Shown here piece by piece: positions 185 through 37,663 of a stretch of DNA of 46,873 bases (the first letter of the stretch is position 1; every line of letters begins with the position of its first letter). The stretch covers positions 1 through 46,873 of the forward strand of contig JABIUV010000039.1 of NCBI GenBank assembly GCA_018700895.1, given 5' to 3'. The position numbers were made by a program, and so were the translations under genes. The notes beneath the pieces were generated by a model. That model made no database searches. It was not told where the DNA came from and saw nothing but the letters and a program-made list of their open reading frames with translations. This DNA comes from Bacteroidota bacterium. Lineage in GTDB: Bacteria > Bacteroidota > Bacteroidia > NS11-12g > UBA9320.

Positions 185-213
185 TGCAACCTTTTGGTAA
201 CACCTGTGTCTAA
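185..213 (+). promoter_or_regulatory. Putative ECF-type autoregulatory promoter
   Basis: TGCAACCTTTT at 185-195 carries the AAC core typical of ECF -35 elements. GTGTCTAA at 206-213 carries a GTC-type -10, about 17 bases after the AAC. It lies just upstream of the ECF sigma start at 231, the usual place for an autoregulated ECF promoter. The sequence is visible; its use by this sigma factor is inferred. Confidence 0.5.
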
Positions 214-230
214 TGTAAAACAAGAGCAAA

Positions 231-761
231 TTGATTAGTGACGAAGAACTTATAACAGGTTGTAAGGAACAAAATCAACGAGCTCAGAAAATGCTCTTTG
301 AAAAGTATGCCGATAGAATGATGGCAGTTTGCATGAGGTACACCAAAAACCAAGAAGACGCAAAAGACTTGCTTCAAGATGGTTTTTATAAAGTCTTTGT
401 AAACATCAAAAAGTTTAAAGGGAATAGTAGTATCACAACTTGGATGACTCGTGTTTTTATTAACCTAGCTATAAATAAACAGCGACTAGGAAGAAATAAA
501 TATGACCACCTTGAGTTTGACCCTTCCAAAGAAAAAGTTTTCGAGGAAGCCTCTGAACCTGAAAAGCAACCCGAACCAGAAACGGTTCTCGCTGCTCTTA
601 ATAAACTTCCTGATATTTATAAAACTGTATTAAACATGTATGCTATCGATCAACTATCTCACAAAGAAATAGCCAAGCAATTGGGTATATCTGTGGGATC
701 TTCTAAAAGCAGACTTTCCAGAGGACGTGTAATGCTAAATACTTTGTTAAACAACAAATAG
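231..761 (+). CDS. ECF-subfamily RNA polymerase sigma factor
   Basis: This 176-residue protein has the two-domain layout of ECF sigma factors. Sigma region 2 lies at about residues 22-90 (FEKYADRMMAVCMRYTKN, then DAKDLLQDGFYKVF). Sigma region 4 lies at about 118-172, with LPDIYKTVLNMYAIDQLSHK and the helix-turn-helix EIAKQLGISVGSSKSRLSRG. It should direct RNA polymerase to a small regulon and be held in check by an anti-sigma factor. The start is TTG; the next in-frame Met (residue 21) would cut into the domain. Ten bases separate it from the next gene, a membrane protein likely to be its regulator. An ECF-like promoter lies directly upstream. Confidence 0.9.
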   Translation: MISDEELITGCKEQNQRAQKMLFEKYADRMMAVCMRYTKNQEDAKDLLQDGFYKVFVNIKKFKGNSSITTWMTRVFINLAINKQRLGRNKYDHLEFDPSKEKVFEEASEPEKQPEPETVLAALNKLPDIYKTVLNMYAIDQLSHKEIAKQLGISVGSSKSRLSRGRVMLNTLLNNK

Positions 762-771
762 AGGCTTTAGA

Positions 772-2073
772 TTGGATAATTTACAACATATCGACAACCT
801 GCTCAAACAAGCGTCACAAGTGCCCGCCAATGCCTTAGTGACCGCCTCTGATTGGGCTGCTGTCGAGAAAAAATTGAAGCAGCGAAAGAACCGCATTTAC
901 GCTATGTGGTTCTTTCTAGCTTTGATTTGTGCTGGAACTGTAATTGGGCTTATTGTCACCAATATCCACTCTTTACAAACCAATCCTAATAACCACGTTG
1001 TTGCTGATACAAAGACAGAAGTGATTGATAATGCCCATTTAAGTCAGTCCCCGAATAAAGAAAATGACTACGACATTTCTACCACAGATGAAATCGACAT
1101 TAACAAACTGTTAAAACACAACAAAACGACAGAGCCCAGCGAGACGACAGAAGCTCAAATAAGCATAGACGAAGTGTCAAGATTCGGTCTGTTAGAAGAA
1201 TCTACTCCAACCCGTGAAAAGACATCAATAAAAACTTCTGCAGACGAAGGACGTTTGGAGATATTCAACCTTCTGCCAATTTCAGCCACTTTCACTCAAC
1301 CAAATCTCCCTGTACCGAGTAAGCAACATATAGGCTATTCGGATGTGTCGTTGCCTACAGACAAATCTGAACTACAGTCACACTGGGAAATGGGTCTCTC
1401 GTTTACACCGGGTTTGTCAAATAAGATAGCTTCCGTAAACAACGCTCTATCATATCTTATAAACCCAACGTATAATAATACGGTTAAGCTAGGCGAACAA
1501 GCTGCCTTTAGTAATACATTTGGTTTCAATACACAATATCACCGTTCTCAATGGTTTATAGCTTCAGGTTTATTTATGACCCAAAGAAATGAGAGAATTG
1601 ATTATAACTACAAAATTGAAATAAGTCCTACTTATGACAACGAGATTTTTAATAAGTTCTTGCCCGTTGTTCCAGGAGCCCAAGAGTCTATCGTGTACTC
1701 CGGGTCAAATTCATATCATTTTATAGAAATACCGATAAGCATAGGGTACAAGCAGTCTGTTTCACCTACTTTTGAGATAAGAACACAGGTTGGTCTCTCC
1801 TATATGGCCTTGCTCAACAGAGAGGGTAAGAAAGGTAATTTCACCACACTGAGATTAGACGATTTAAAAAAATTGCAGTTTAACCAACATAATATAGCCG
1901 CCAATATCAAGACTGGTCTATATCTCAACAAGCCTCGTTTTGTTGTAGGAGTAGAACCATTATTTGGCATAAATATTAACTCACTGCGATCTCCAGAAAC
2001 TTCTGCAATCAAAACCAATCCATATGGATACGGTGTGAATCTAACTACTGCTGTAAAATTATTTAGATTATGA
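772..2073 (+). CDS. Membrane-anchored protein with barrel-like C-terminus, candidate anti-sigma factor
   Basis: The protein has 433 residues and a TTG start. Residues 1-42 are short, charged and predicted cytoplasmic. Residues 43-63 (YAMWFFLALICAGTVIGLIV) form one transmembrane helix. Residues 64-200 are polar and low in complexity. Residues 200-433 alternate hydrophobic and polar residues and have glycine- and aromatic-rich strands, resembling small outer-membrane barrel (PorT-like) domains. Its place directly after an ECF gene, with a cytoplasmic N-terminus and one helix, fits an anti-sigma factor. I see no zinc-binding anti-sigma (ZAS) motif and no clear FecR domain. The anti-sigma role is inferred from context. 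The stop overlaps the next ATG (ATGA). Confidence 0.6.
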   Translation: MDNLQHIDNLLKQASQVPANALVTASDWAAVEKKLKQRKNRIYAMWFFLALICAGTVIGLIVTNIHSLQTNPNNHVVADTKTEVIDNAHLSQSPNKENDYDISTTDEIDINKLLKHNKTTEPSETTEAQISIDEVSRFGLLEESTPTREKTSIKTSADEGRLEIFNLLPISATFTQPNLPVPSKQHIGYSDVSLPTDKSELQSHWEMGLSFTPGLSNKIASVNNALSYLINPTYNNTVKLGEQAAFSNTFGFNTQYHRSQWFIASGLFMTQRNERIDYNYKIEISPTYDNEIFNKFLPVVPGAQESIVYSGSNSYHFIEIPISIGYKQSVSPTFEIRTQVGLSYMALLNREGKKGNFTTLRLDDLKKLQFNQHNIAANIKTGLYLNKPRFVVGVEPLFGININSLRSPETSAIKTNPYGYGVNLTTAVKLFRL

Positions 2074-4493
2074 GGGGCATAATATTACATATCATACTCC
2101 TTCTCACTGCGATAGGTTCACAAGCTCAAGTTATGAGCCCACTGGGCAAGGGACTACCCGCCGCACCCGACAAAATAGCCAATCACAAAAATGGCCTGGT
2201 AGCTGCATATGATGACAGGGATGGCAACATTAATGTTCAGATATGGAATGGCGACTTTTGGCACTCATTACCCACTCCTATGTTGCCTAAAACTGGGGAT
2301 TATCAGATAACTGATATTGTAAGTTTTGGTGACGAAATATACTTAATGACTAGCTACACAACTTATATAAGTGGTGTAACTAAAAACAGTATTCTCAAAT
2401 GGGATAATAACTCTTGGTTAAACACCACAAATGCTACAATTAGTGATAGTAGATCATTGAATAGCTTCTTTGTACAAAACGGTATTCTGAAGTGTGTAGG
2501 TGTATTCCAAAACACAAATACAGAATCCAACGTAGCTCAATATGTAAATGATGCTTGGGAAATGCAGGGGAATCTCATTACTAGCAATCTTACTAAAGAC
2601 TCATTCATAAGTGTAGTAAAAAATGGCGACCGTTTATTCGCGACCGGCACTTTTACCAATCCCCAAAACAACAACCTATCTCTAGTAGAATGGAATGGTA
2701 CCAAGTGGACAACTACCAATTTTCCTCCATTTTTACAACAAAATATTGCTCTTGGGTCATATAATGACAAGGTGGTAGCTTATGGCACCTCAACTTTCAA
2801 TACTGCTCCTATTAAAATAAACGATAATGGAAATTGGAAAGATCTGGATGCCGGTTTGCAAGATATATCGATACGAAATATCACACAGTTTGCCGAGTTA
2901 GACAACCAATTGCTTGCACTTGGTTCGTTTGTAGATAACTCAAATGCTCAACAGACCAATTTATTATTGTATGACGGGCAGCAGTGGAAACCATCCACTA
3001 TCACTTTGCCCCACATAGACGAAATACACTCTTTTGGTAAGACCGTAGCTCTATCAGGAGATTATGACGACAATGGTTTATTGCGAGGTGTCGCACAGGT
3101 ACACGTGAATATGTCCCAGATTATCACACGTGTTTTTGAAGATAAAAATGGTAATTGTACCAAAGATGCTAATGAGTCATGGATTAAACATCATCCAGTG
3201 AAGCTTAACGAAGCTAGTCTTATCAGTACAGGAGAAAATGGTGTGATGTACGCTCGTGTAGCGTCAAACAATACGTATAAACTTAACGCAGCTGAGTACA
3301 GACACTATGTGCCTACGTGTGACGACATAACATTAGAAGTCACAGAAAATGCAACCTATTATGGTTCTGCACTTGGCGTACGCCAAACTCTCGGCATTAC
3401 CGATGCGGCGATATATCTAACTGATAATGCTGGAAACACTTATCAGCCGGGAGATCAAAAAAACGCAACACTTTGTGTCAATAATTTTGGTAGTCAACCC
3501 CTTACTGATGCGATCATTTCGTTAGATTTACCTGCTGGTTTAGGAAACTTTGTTTCCAGCACCACTCCAACTAATATTATAGATGATGTCGCTCAGTGGT
3601 CTGTAGACCTATCGGCTAATACACAAACCTGTATCGACTTAGCATATAATCTCAATGGTACCGATGACTTAAAGCTAAAAGCTCAGATTAATCCGCAATC
3701 TGGAATCGCCGATGCTGAAATTAATAATAATCAAGCAGAGTTTACCTACTACTCTAGCCAAGAAGAACTTAAGACTAAATATTGCTTAAATGGTAAAGCT
3801 ATAGAGCCAAATGAGAAGAACCTCAATTATAAAATCAGCTACAAAAACGATAATGCAGCAACGGTAACGGCTATAAAAGTAGTAGATATCCTAGATGATG
3901 ATATTATAAGAAGTGTAGAAGGTATATACATTAAAACAAGTCACGCAACTGACGCAACAATCTACTCTGATTACGACTTTGTAACCAATGATGCAGGGAA
4001 TACTGTGCTCAAAATCGTAACTACCATAGAAAACATAGCAATACCGCCTTCATCTGTAAATGAAGCCCTTGCAGGAGCCTTTGTAGACTACCAAATAGGT
4101 ATAAGAAGTGACCTTATGGATGAGGATGCTGAAATATGCAATACAGCTAAAATTTATCTTGCTTTTGAGAATGGTGTTTTTGATGAGCCCATCACGACCA
4201 ATACAGTTTGCAGTTTCTTTGGCGAAACATTAACTACAACTAACACAACCGATCAATATTTGCTATCTAATGCACTAACCATAGGGCCAAATCCTGTTAC
4301 GTACCACATTAACATATCAAACAGTAGTTCTGAGGTTATACAACTTCAACTTGTAAATAGCCTTGGTAAGCAAATAGATACTTCTGAAGTTAACAAGAAA
4401 TCAAGTATGGATATGGATGTTAGTTCATTAGCCTCAGGCATTTATTTTGTATACGCCAATGGCCTGTTTGCTCAGAAAGTTATCATTCAGTAG
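2070..4493 (+). CDS. Secreted T9SS cargo protein with propeller-like repeats and a type A sorting domain
   Basis: The 807-residue protein starts with a signal peptide (MRGIILHIILLLTAIGSQAQ). Residues 30-350 hold repeats built around W-x-G/N-x-x-W (IWNGDFWHSL, WDNNSWLN, WNGTKWTT, YDGQQWKP), typical of Kelch-like or WD-like propellers. A linker with a GVFEDKNGNCTKDANE-like motif resembles SdrD_B/DUF11 cell-surface modules and runs to about residue 700. The C-terminus (LTIGPNPV at about 730 to VIIQ) is a type A T9SS sorting domain. It overlaps the preceding membrane gene by 4 bases, so its expression is tied to the sigma/anti-sigma pair. The binding partner is unknown; a surface adhesin or sensor ligand is possible. 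Confidence 0.75.
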   Translation: MRGIILHIILLLTAIGSQAQVMSPLGKGLPAAPDKIANHKNGLVAAYDDRDGNINVQIWNGDFWHSLPTPMLPKTGDYQITDIVSFGDEIYLMTSYTTYISGVTKNSILKWDNNSWLNTTNATISDSRSLNSFFVQNGILKCVGVFQNTNTESNVAQYVNDAWEMQGNLITSNLTKDSFISVVKNGDRLFATGTFTNPQNNNLSLVEWNGTKWTTTNFPPFLQQNIALGSYNDKVVAYGTSTFNTAPIKINDNGNWKDLDAGLQDISIRNITQFAELDNQLLALGSFVDNSNAQQTNLLLYDGQQWKPSTITLPHIDEIHSFGKTVALSGDYDDNGLLRGVAQVHVNMSQIITRVFEDKNGNCTKDANESWIKHHPVKLNEASLISTGENGVMYARVASNNTYKLNAAEYRHYVPTCDDITLEVTENATYYGSALGVRQTLGITDAAIYLTDNAGNTYQPGDQKNATLCVNNFGSQPLTDAIISLDLPAGLGNFVSSTTPTNIIDDVAQWSVDLSANTQTCIDLAYNLNGTDDLKLKAQINPQSGIADAEINNNQAEFTYYSSQEELKTKYCLNGKAIEPNEKNLNYKISYKNDNAATVTAIKVVDILDDDIIRSVEGIYIKTSHATDATIYSDYDFVTNDAGNTVLKIVTTIENIAIPPSSVNEALAGAFVDYQIGIRSDLMDEDAEICNTAKIYLAFENGVFDEPITTNTVCSFFGETLTTTNTTDQYLLSNALTIGPNPVTYHINISNSSSEVIQLQLVNSLGKQIDTSEVNKKSSMDMDVSSLASGIYFVYANGLFAQKVIIQ

Positions 4494-4504: not shown

Positions 4505-5179
4505 CTACGACGCCAGACTCAGCCTCAACCCCTTTACATCTAGCAATACTTCACCGCACGAAATCATAGTAGATCCCGTAGTGATTACATCATCTATTAA
4601 AAGAACGTGTTTATTTTCTAACAGCTCGGGAGTATTAACCCGAAAGAGTTCCTTGGCGTTGATATAGCGTTCATATCGTTTCTTTTTAGTTTGTGTAACA
4701 TTGTATCGCTCTCTCGTTACTGCATCACTCGCAACAGGTATTTGTGTTACTTCATGAAGCCCGCGACATAGTAATTCAGCCTGATTATATCCTCTTTCCC
4801 GCTGTCGTTTATTATGAAGTGGAATGGGAATCAGAACATCAACGTTGGCTAGCAGATCATTTTTGTTTAACGCCCAACCCAACCATTTTCCCATCTCAAT
4901 TCCTAGCTCCCTATTACCGCGATATTTGAGTTCGTGCATAAGCCTTTGTACTGCACCACCTTTGCCATATGTCAAATAAGCCGTAGCGACATCCGTTTTT
5001 ATACTACCCCAAAATTTCTTGGCCACCGCATTATCTTTCTGTTCAAACGACTCAAAACGCGGAAGTTCAAACTCGCAGAAATCACATATAAATTTTTCTT
5101 GTTGGCTGAGGTAGCCTTGGCAGCAAATACACAGATTAGGAAATAGCAATTGTCCAATTGACGCTAATAAATTTTTCAT
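4505..5179 (-). CDS. comF: ComF family amidophosphoribosyltransferase-like protein
   Basis: The 224-residue protein has the ComF layout. An N-terminal zinc-ribbon-like cluster has Cys at 17, 19, 20, 32 and 35. A phosphoribosyltransferase core follows, with the hallmark VLIPIPLHNKRQRERGYNQA at about 115-134 and the PRPP-binding loop LLIDDVITTGST at about 193-204. ComF proteins are needed for natural DNA uptake in transformable bacteria; their enzymatic substrate is not established. The gene faces the T9SS cargo gene tail to tail with an 11-base gap and is divergent from thiL. Confidence 0.88.
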   Translation of the reverse strand: MKNLLASIGQLLFPNLCICCQGYLSQQEKFICDFCEFELPRFESFEQKDNAVAKKFWGSIKTDVATAYLTYGKGGAVQRLMHELKYRGNRELGIEMGKWLGWALNKNDLLANVDVLIPIPLHNKRQRERGYNQAELLCRGLHEVTQIPVASDAVTRERYNVTQTKKKRYERYINAKELFRVNTPELLENKHVLLIDDVITTGSTMISCGEVLLDVKGLRLSLAS

Positions 5180-35851: not shown

Positions 35852-36790
35852 ATGATGGCAAAAAGAAATAAAATCGTTTTACTCAGCACATTACTTATGA
35901 TCTGCGGTCTCAGTTTTGAGGCTAGTGCACAACGCTGGTTTCGTACAAGTTCGTTGGAGTTCGGGCTCATTGGCGGGGCAAGTCACTACTCCGGAGATCT
36001 TCAAGAGGTATACATAGACCCACGGGGACTCAAACCAAGCGTAGGAATTATCACGCGATATAGCCCTGGAGAAATCCTTACATTCAGACTAAGTGCCCAA
36101 TACGGGAGTTTAGAAGCAAGAGATGACTGGTATGAAGATCTAACTGCGTTGAGCAGAAGAAACTTAAGTTTCACATCGGAACTCTGGGACTTTACCGGAG
36201 GTTTAGAGGTTAATTTAAGACGCATGGAAGCTAAACAGAGATCAGGGATATACCCCTATCTATTTACGGGTGCGAGTGTATTTAAGTTTAATCCTAAAAC
36301 CACTTTTGTATATGACCCAACCAGTGCAATAGCACAATATATGGAGCAGAGTACACCTGGTTCTTATACTGGTCTTATAGATAGAGATGGAGAAGAAGTA
36401 GAGCTTCAACCACTCGGTACGGAAGGACAAGAAACCACAGAATTTAACGACAGGAAAAGATACGCACTTACTCAGGTAGCTATACCTGTAGGTGGTGGAA
36501 TCAAATTCAAACTAAATCACAAGTGGACCGCCGCAGTAGAATATGGAGCACGCTTCACCTTCACCGATTATATAGATGATGTAAGCAGCACCTACGTTGA
36601 CCCTGTAAGACTTACAGCTCAATACGGACCAATGTCTTCTGCTGTAGCTGTAAGAAATCCTGAGTTTGACCCTGCAAGAATAGAGGGGTTAAAACGTGGG
36701 GATCCTAATGATAACGACATTTATGGTATATTAGGAATATCCCTTACTTACAGGCTGTATGGCAATAGACCCGTATGCCCTTCGTTTTAA
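35852..36790 (+). CDS. DUF6089 outer-membrane beta-barrel protein (copy 1)
   Basis: The 312-residue protein begins with a signal peptide (IVLLSTLLMICGLSFEASAQ). An alternating-strand barrel follows and ends in LTYRL-type strands. Shared with copy 2 are the early SLEFGLIGGASHYSGDLQ strand, the RRNLSFTSELWDFTGGLEVN strand, and the late FTDYIDDVSSTYVDP motif. DUF6089 proteins lie next to uppS-bamA in many Bacteroidota and are presumed outer-membrane proteins; the role is unknown. Copy 2 follows in tandem. The start could also be the second Met codon. Confidence 0.85.
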   Translation: MMAKRNKIVLLSTLLMICGLSFEASAQRWFRTSSLEFGLIGGASHYSGDLQEVYIDPRGLKPSVGIITRYSPGEILTFRLSAQYGSLEARDDWYEDLTALSRRNLSFTSELWDFTGGLEVNLRRMEAKQRSGIYPYLFTGASVFKFNPKTTFVYDPTSAIAQYMEQSTPGSYTGLIDRDGEEVELQPLGTEGQETTEFNDRKRYALTQVAIPVGGGIKFKLNHKWTAAVEYGARFTFTDYIDDVSSTYVDPVRLTAQYGPMSSAVAVRNPEFDPARIEGLKRGDPNDNDIYGILGISLTYRLYGNRPVCPSF

Positions 36791-36845
36791 ACTAGAATAA
36801 ACACTCGTTTAACTCATCCAAAATATTCTTACGTAACATTTCAGC

Positions 36846-36853
36846 TAGTTTTG
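36846..36853 (+). promoter_or_regulatory. -7 promoter element for DUF6089 copy 2 and downstream genes
   Basis: TAGTTTTG matches TAnnTTTG exactly, 33 bases before the TTG at 36887. It could drive DUF6089 copy 2, uppS and bamA. The -33 element is unclear. Confidence 0.45.
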
Positions 36854-36886
36854 CGTAATAGAAAACAAGAAAGCACGATTTAGATA

Positions 36887-37663
36887 TTGAAAAAAGCGAT
36901 ATTATATATTGTCATCTGTCTTGTAGCACAGAGTACCATGGCCCAGTCTTGGGAGGTAGGTGCTATGGCTGGTGGCTCCAACTATCACGGAGATTTGGCT
37001 TATAATATCGTTCCCAAGGAAACCAATGTCTCCGGAGGAGCTTTTTTTAAGTATAACTTTAACGAATACTGGACCGTACGTCCCACCCTTTCTTACATGA
37101 AAATAAGTGGGGCTGATAGCAATTTTAATGAATATCGCCTACGAAACTTGAGTTTCCGTAACAATATCTACGAGGTGTCCAACGTGATGGAATTTAATTT
37201 TCAACCGTTTAGTAATCAAGCCATACACGGCAGAACAACTGCCTATGCTTTATTGGGTCTAGGTCTTTTTTTGCACAAACCCGAAGCTAAGCTCAATGAT
37301 GAATGGGTTAGCCTACAACCTCTCCGCACCGAAAATCAAAAATATAAACTGATGCAGATAAGTGTGCCAATGGGTATTGGAGTAAAACACGCCATCAATC
37401 CTAATTTCATAGTAGGTTTTGAGGCTGGGTGGAGAAAAACATTTACGGACTACTTGGACGACGTAAGCAGTACCTATGCAGACCCAACAGACGGCGGAGC
37501 CACATACAGAGCCCTAGTAGATCGCTCATACGAAGTAAGCGAAACTGGACAACCACTTGCCTCGCAAGGAGATGTACGTGGAGACGCCAATTTAGACGAC
37601 TGGTTTTTTCAAACAGCATTTTCCATATCCTACAGGTTTACGCCTATTAAGTGTCCTTTCTAA
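36887..37663 (+). CDS. DUF6089 outer-membrane beta-barrel protein (copy 2)
   Basis: The 258-residue protein uses a TTG start and a signal peptide (MKKAILYIVICLVAQSTMAQ). It shares with copy 1 the opening EVGAMAGGSNYHGDLA strand, the RLRNLSFRNNIYEVSNVMEF strand and FTDYLDDVSSTYADP, so the two arose by tandem duplication or are old paralogues. It is shorter than copy 1 (258 against 312 residues). It precedes uppS by 18 bases and probably shares its transcript. The role is unknown, but the neighbours point to the outer-membrane assembly block. Confidence 0.85.
   Translation: MKKAILYIVICLVAQSTMAQSWEVGAMAGGSNYHGDLAYNIVPKETNVSGGAFFKYNFNEYWTVRPTLSYMKISGADSNFNEYRLRNLSFRNNIYEVSNVMEFNFQPFSNQAIHGRTTAYALLGLGLFLHKPEAKLNDEWVSLQPLRTENQKYKLMQISVPMGIGVKHAINPNFIVGFEAGWRKTFTDYLDDVSSTYADPTDGGATYRALVDRSYEVSETGQPLASQGDVRGDANLDDWFFQTAFSISYRFTPIKCPF

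Follow-up and report, generated by a model that had tools for sequence, protein, structure and literature searches.

Positions 231-4493 of the window, by which we mean the whole 46,873-nucleotide stretch of DNA analysed here, hold a three-gene operon in which an ECF sigma factor is followed by a 433-residue membrane protein and an 807-residue type A cargo of the type IX secretion system (T9SS). We consider it probable that this operon works as a self-regulating sigma switch of the Das-Dma type that spans the envelope and has a dedicated surface partner. The gene order, the domain layout, the barrel of the membrane protein, the conserved promoter and the near-obligate association of the genes are all shown by computation.

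All three genes lie on the forward strand. The sigma gene (231-761; TTG start, 176 residues) is followed by the middle gene, which encodes a putative Dma-type trans-envelope anti-sigma protein (772-2073; TTG start), and by the cargo gene (2070-4493; ATG start), and the last two overlap by four bases at an ATGA (2070-2073). On the same strand upstream are the last 38 codons of another T9SS cargo (3-118; TIGR04183 match at C11:11-109). Between this gene end and the sigma gene lies a terminator-like hairpin, GGCTCGAC-TTTC-GTCGAGCC, followed by a T run (147-172, forward), and hairpins occupy the same site in relatives. The predicted autoregulatory promoter of the sigma factor, TTGCAACC-N14-GTGTCTA (184-212, forward), is also kept in relatives. 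Downstream, a comF-like gene on the opposite strand ends at 4505. The genome encodes its own T9SS, as judged from a SprA match of 2456 bits. A preliminary description of this DNA had joined the sigma factor, the middle protein and the overlapping cargo into one unit behind an ECF-type promoter, beginning at 185, where the conserved TGCAACC box of the promoter starts. The coordinates, the domains and the order kept in relatives bear out the unit, and the conserved motif bears out the promoter.

In 31 cassettes extracted from two families the three genes follow one another in this order, often with four-base overlaps, even where the middle proteins share just 14-24% identity. We then read 40 loci of further full-length cargo homologues, of which roughly half are second copies and 39 have upstream sequence. 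A Dma homologue lies directly upstream of the cargo in 37 of these 39, and the sigma gene comes next beyond Dma in all 34 loci whose contig extends far enough. The operon is thus real and conserved, and the 31 cassettes together with the 34 further loci rule out chance neighbours. Both exceptions are extra cargo copies, in genomes G034 and G030. A cargo profile stripped of the sorting domain finds matches in 101 of the 108 genomes of the order, across which full-length cargo relatives are present. We rejected a phylum-wide distribution of the cargo family: beyond the order, just parts of the protein match, mostly residues ~355-710 or 85-340.

The sigma factor matches Pfam Sigma70 r2 (E 2e-13), Sigma70 r4 (E 1e-16) and TIGR02937 (E 1e-28), and in a tree with long branches it groups with sigma factors that adjoin Dma-like genes in Parabacteroides and Dysgonomonas. 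From the family models and the tree we predict a Das-type, ECF21-like factor. The genome holds 11 sigma-70 family matches, one of them primary-type; three of its sigma factors match a profile of the window sigma at 1e-50 or better, and the rest at 1e-25 or weaker.

The middle protein reaches the barrel family model OMP_b-brl_2 only below the Pfam cut-off (E 0.009), so recognition of the barrel required structure prediction. An AlphaFold2 model built on an alignment of 32 sequences shows a helix at residues 25-66, disorder at 67-198 and eight strands within 204-431 at a pLDDT of ~97, and among solved structures the barrel best matches the transmembrane domain of OmpA (Z 16.5-16.6), followed by NspA (Z 15.9). 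Along the forward strand the gene therefore divides into a predicted cytosolic anti-sigma domain (codons 1-42, 772-897), which is among the best-conserved parts and is homologous to other sigma-linked N-termini; an inner-membrane helix (codons ~43-64, 898-963), evident as a hydrophobic stretch; a disordered periplasmic tether (codons 67-198, 970-1365) with pLDDT <50 throughout; and the 8-stranded outer-membrane barrel (codons 204-431, 1381-2064; OmpA Z 16.6). The tether has 14% pairwise identity and many indels. Unlike the tether, the barrel loops are almost indel-free, with identities for loops versus strands of 0.45 versus 0.57 in the genus and 0.34 versus 0.36 elsewhere in the family. By likeness to OmpA, the N-terminus of the barrel would lie on the periplasmic side, with the short turns inside and the long loops outside. 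So oriented, the middle protein would reach from the cytosol to the cell surface, and sequence and model together suggest that it spans both membranes.

Dual membrane-spanning anti-sigma (Dma) proteins of Bacteroidota consist of an N-terminal anti-sigma domain, a helix, a disordered tether and a C-terminal barrel, and are encoded beside an ECF21 sigma factor (PMC13088901). The middle protein, with its single helix after a short N-terminal domain, long disordered tether and C-terminal β-barrel, is Dma-like in each of these features, and by this precedent its N-terminus is predicted to restrain the sigma factor. The preliminary description had proposed an inner-membrane helix joined to a barrel-like C-terminal half, and both the hydrophobic stretch and the AlphaFold2 model uphold this. 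A barrel forms the C-terminal half, and in every relative with room on its contig the middle gene adjoins the sigma gene. The topology that it called odd is real but not isolated, since it is the layout of the Dma family from Bacteroides thetaiotaomicron (PMC13088901). Its suggestion of an anti-sigma role gains support from the same source, where this layout belongs to a genetically supported anti-sigma factor. The sensing of T9SS status that it also suggested is a hypothesis. In one relative (L034:2706-4050, genome G009), the Dma gene is split into two overlapping frames, through either an assembly error or a real frameshift.

The cargo scores 39.8 bits against Por_Secre_tail (cut-off 27) and 32.7 against TIGR04183 (cut-off 23), and DUF7619 and DUF11 are also above their cut-offs. 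Its N-terminus carries a hydrophobic segment ending in SQAQ, which we read as a signal peptide. The protein thus combines a signal peptide with a C-terminal sorting domain in a T9SS-bearing genome, as a type A cargo does. In the structure model (mean pLDDT 86), the signal peptide is followed by a propeller-like domain (~20-357), β sandwiches including DUF11 and DUF7619, and the sorting domain (~740-807). Invariant residues are spread along the full length of the protein. A likeness to integrins was considered and set aside. Integrin alpha ectodomains top the Foldseek list (E 2e-17), but the TM-scores of 0.15-0.26 and an rmsd near 30 indicate that the cargo shares with integrins only the order of a propeller followed by sandwiches, and we draw no function from it. 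The cargo gene of one relative (L044:1-10135, G022) is split into two overlapping frames, again by assembly error or real frameshift.

In nearly every relative, a promoter of the form TTGCAACC[T/A]TT, 10-11 bases, GTGTCTA starts 41-49 bases upstream of the sigma start, with GCGTCAT replacing GTGTCTA in the second family. Across 34 genomes including the window's own, exact matches number 16, and the reversed pattern has none; in 15 cases the site precedes this sigma gene, and in one it precedes a giant T9SS cargo gene upstream of sigma. In its own genome the operon's promoter is the sole exact site. A broad sigma regulon was rejected: with fewer than three mismatches the scan of this genome returned the operon's own site only, and eight three-mismatch sites compare with ten for the reversed control. 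In relatives the giant upstream cargo, whose counterpart in the window is the partial gene at 3-118, is ~1385 residues long, with Ig-like, GEVED and sorting domains. Its promoter site lies ~80 bases before the start in G009 and G006, has the variant TGCAACT in G011 and G017, and is degenerate in G016. These sites point to a predicted regulon, resting on motifs, of the operon plus the adjacent giant surface protein, and we lean towards the latter, which has the same promoter, as a better candidate output than the operon's own cargo. The giant gene lies directly upstream of sigma at L237:3385-7542, L238:5035-9192, L240:655-4845 and L241:582-4736, and sometimes two occur in tandem.

In the switch that we propose, the Dma protein would hold the sigma factor through its cytosolic N-terminus, cross the inner membrane once, run through the periplasm as a disordered tether and end in the outer membrane as an OmpA-like barrel, whose long, well-conserved loops would face outside. 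The T9SS would export the third protein, which would come to sit on or near the barrel. Should this cargo be missing, mis-delivered or bound to something outside, the Dma protein would be loosened or cleaved and the sigma factor set free to transcribe the operon that encodes it and also, within this genus, the gene for the adjacent giant T9SS surface protein. The contact between cargo and barrel, the direction of the signal and the mechanism of release are what we infer for this model. The preliminary description had counted the cargo as part of the sigma and regulator system, as its signal, its surface receptor or its output; the near-obligate association supports its membership, and among these roles we lean towards that of a dedicated partner. 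Divergence of the barrel tracks that of the cargo, with partial correlations given sigma of 0.54 (32 sequences) and 0.85 (12 sequences), while in the same two sets the N-terminal domain gave 0.22 and 0.24 against the cargo and 0.31 and 0.55 against sigma; the sequences are few and related, and the barrel strands follow the cargo no less closely than the loops. These values are suggestive only of an outside pair of barrel and cargo and an inside pair of N-terminus and sigma. Against a dedicated partner stand the two full-length cargo copies that lack sigma and Dma neighbours, and the finding that deletion of the third gene of the Bacteroides dma2 operon left vesiculation unchanged (PMC13088901).

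The cargo might instead be merely an output, a surface protein made when sigma is free, with sigma and Dma sensing something else. The cargo gene does lie within the autoregulated operon, the operon's neighbour in relatives is a second T9SS cargo gene preceded by the same promoter, and in B. thetaiotaomicron deletion of dma2 strongly induces the third gene, which the vesiculation phenotype does not require (PMC13088901). A mere output, however, need not be so strictly tied to its regulator as 37 of 39 loci show, paralogues included, nor diverge in step with the barrel, and we regard this explanation as unlikely, if one to be taken seriously. Sensing of outer-membrane assembly or integrity by the barrel itself, with an incidental cargo, would suit the families in which most Das-Dma loci have no third gene, as well as the control of vesiculation by Dma1 and Dma2 (PMC13088901). 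It would leave both the conserved cargo and the conserved extracellular loops unexplained, and seems to us quite improbable. That the middle protein is an ordinary outer-membrane protein co-transcribed with the sigma gene, and no anti-sigma factor, is very hard to credit: Pfam anti-sigma domains find no match in its first 42 residues, but this N-terminus is well conserved and common to other sigma-linked membrane proteins, in place of the expected cleavable signal peptide the barrel has a long internal helix in front of it, and an anti-sigma factor of the same layout has genetic support in Bacteroides (PMC13088901).

The Dma type of regulator and its topology are already known, and what seems new is the near-obligate pairing with a T9SS cargo, together with the sister form ending in a sorting domain that is described below. 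In the FecI-FecR-FecA system, an outer-membrane signal reaches an ECF sigma factor via an inner-membrane anti-sigma factor, in a system of two proteins with a TonB-dependent receptor. A similar route is proposed here, but through one protein with a helix and a small 8-stranded barrel; the window operon has no TonB-dependent outer-membrane receptor. The closest relatives are Dma1/Das1 and Dma2/Das2 (PMC13088901), in which an ECF sigma factor likewise sits beside a protein built of N-terminal domain, helix, tether and barrel. In B. thetaiotaomicron, dma2 is one of three genes in its operon, and its deletion frees Das2 and strongly raises expression of that operon (PMC13088901), much as the window operon has three genes and is predicted to regulate itself. 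The third gene there encodes a DUF4943 protein, whereas that of the window encodes a T9SS cargo found almost only with sigma and Dma, and the Dma report contains neither a T9SS link nor a named signal (PMC13088901). In Porphyromonas gingivalis, signalling through PorXY-SigP is affected by PorA, which carries a T9SS sorting domain (PMC7712824). There too a surface protein with a sorting domain influences an ECF sigma factor, the role that we propose for the window cargo, but the signal passes via a two-component system, whereas the window operon has a candidate membrane-spanning anti-sigma factor and no two-component gene. An ECF pair of Flavobacterium psychrophilum acting at SM6 promoters has targets that include T9SS machinery genes (PMC9723704), whereas the predicted targets here are T9SS cargos. 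A partner almost never found without Dma is a concrete candidate for what Dma proteins sense. If the cargo or its export were the signal, the cell would monitor type IX secretion from surface to promoter with a single regulator protein.

Third genes differ among other Das-Dma loci, for which the automatic classes are rough and give a general picture only. In Parabacteroides and Tannerella the third gene encodes a NigD-like lipoprotein, in two other loci a lipoprotein with LVIVD repeats, and in many loci of family f6 no same-strand third gene follows. An exported or lipid-anchored partner is therefore common and not universal, and the many Das-Dma loci without a cargo gene indicate that such a partner is not required by every Dma. 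The NigD-like lipoprotein (PF22221) follows Dma in Bacteroidales-type loci at L205:7870-8670, L138:6879-7694 and L091:2939-3718. NigD1 is required for vesiculation of a dma1 mutant (PMC13088901), and with NigD-like third genes in these loci it is worth asking whether third genes and known outputs are related by family.

All three sigma factors of the window type in this genome are followed by a membrane protein and then a T9SS cargo, on contigs C11 (the window), C9 and C28. With ~80 sorting-domain matches in 2.4 Mb, the background is about one gene in 27, assuming ~2,100 genes by our estimate, and three of three is far above chance. The C9 cassette (L071:2720-6284, G000:C9) comprises sigma, a 492-residue Dma and a 519-residue type A cargo whose body is unrelated to that of the window cargo; cargos with a C9-like body follow Dma genes in other genomes, for example at L150. 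The C28 cassette (L366:6864-14499, equal to G000:C28:61863-69498) comprises a related sigma, a 415-residue protein and a 2019-residue cargo ending in a type B domain. Membrane proteins of the C28 type (402-430 residues) have a Dma-like N-terminal domain and helix, and no barrel; they end in a T9SS type B sorting domain. The CHU_C type IX sorting domain is above the Pfam cut-off in all five tested, TIGR04131 is above or near its cut-off in most, and the N-terminal domain aligns with that of Dma at an hhalign probability of 97.6 (E 3.5e-12). Across the family the gene runs without interruption in 17 loci, those of the window's own genome and 16 full-length relatives (L342-L356 and L358), with sigma directly upstream in 17 of 17; the large type B cargo (~2019 residues) is complete in L366, and L342-L358 hold only its first part.

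In the sigma tree, whose branches are long and support modest, the sigma factors of the barrel form and the sorting-domain form are intermixed, and both stand apart from the other ECF sigma factors of the genome. C28-like proteins follow related sigma factors in other Bacteroidia as well, and Cryomorpha ignava (L173) has a C28-like cassette in which the C-terminal domain falls below TIGR04131. The open-access literature that we searched contained no anti-sigma factor with a T9SS sorting domain, and an anti-sigma-like protein of this kind looks undescribed. As a tentative generalization, possible but somewhat doubtful, T9SS-bearing Bacteroidota may have one sigma subfamily wired to the T9SS, with an anti-sigma factor that ends either in a cargo-paired barrel or in a type B sorting domain and with T9SS delivery of a dedicated cargo as the signal. 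If so, anti-sigma factors whose distal end is a T9SS sorting domain would form a new class of regulators that cross the envelope, and this form would suggest a sensing role for T9SS signals besides their role in export.

Elsewhere in the window, two adjacent similar secreted proteins of 312 and 258 residues (35852-37663), both outer-membrane-barrel-like, lie upstream of uppS-like and bamA-like genes.
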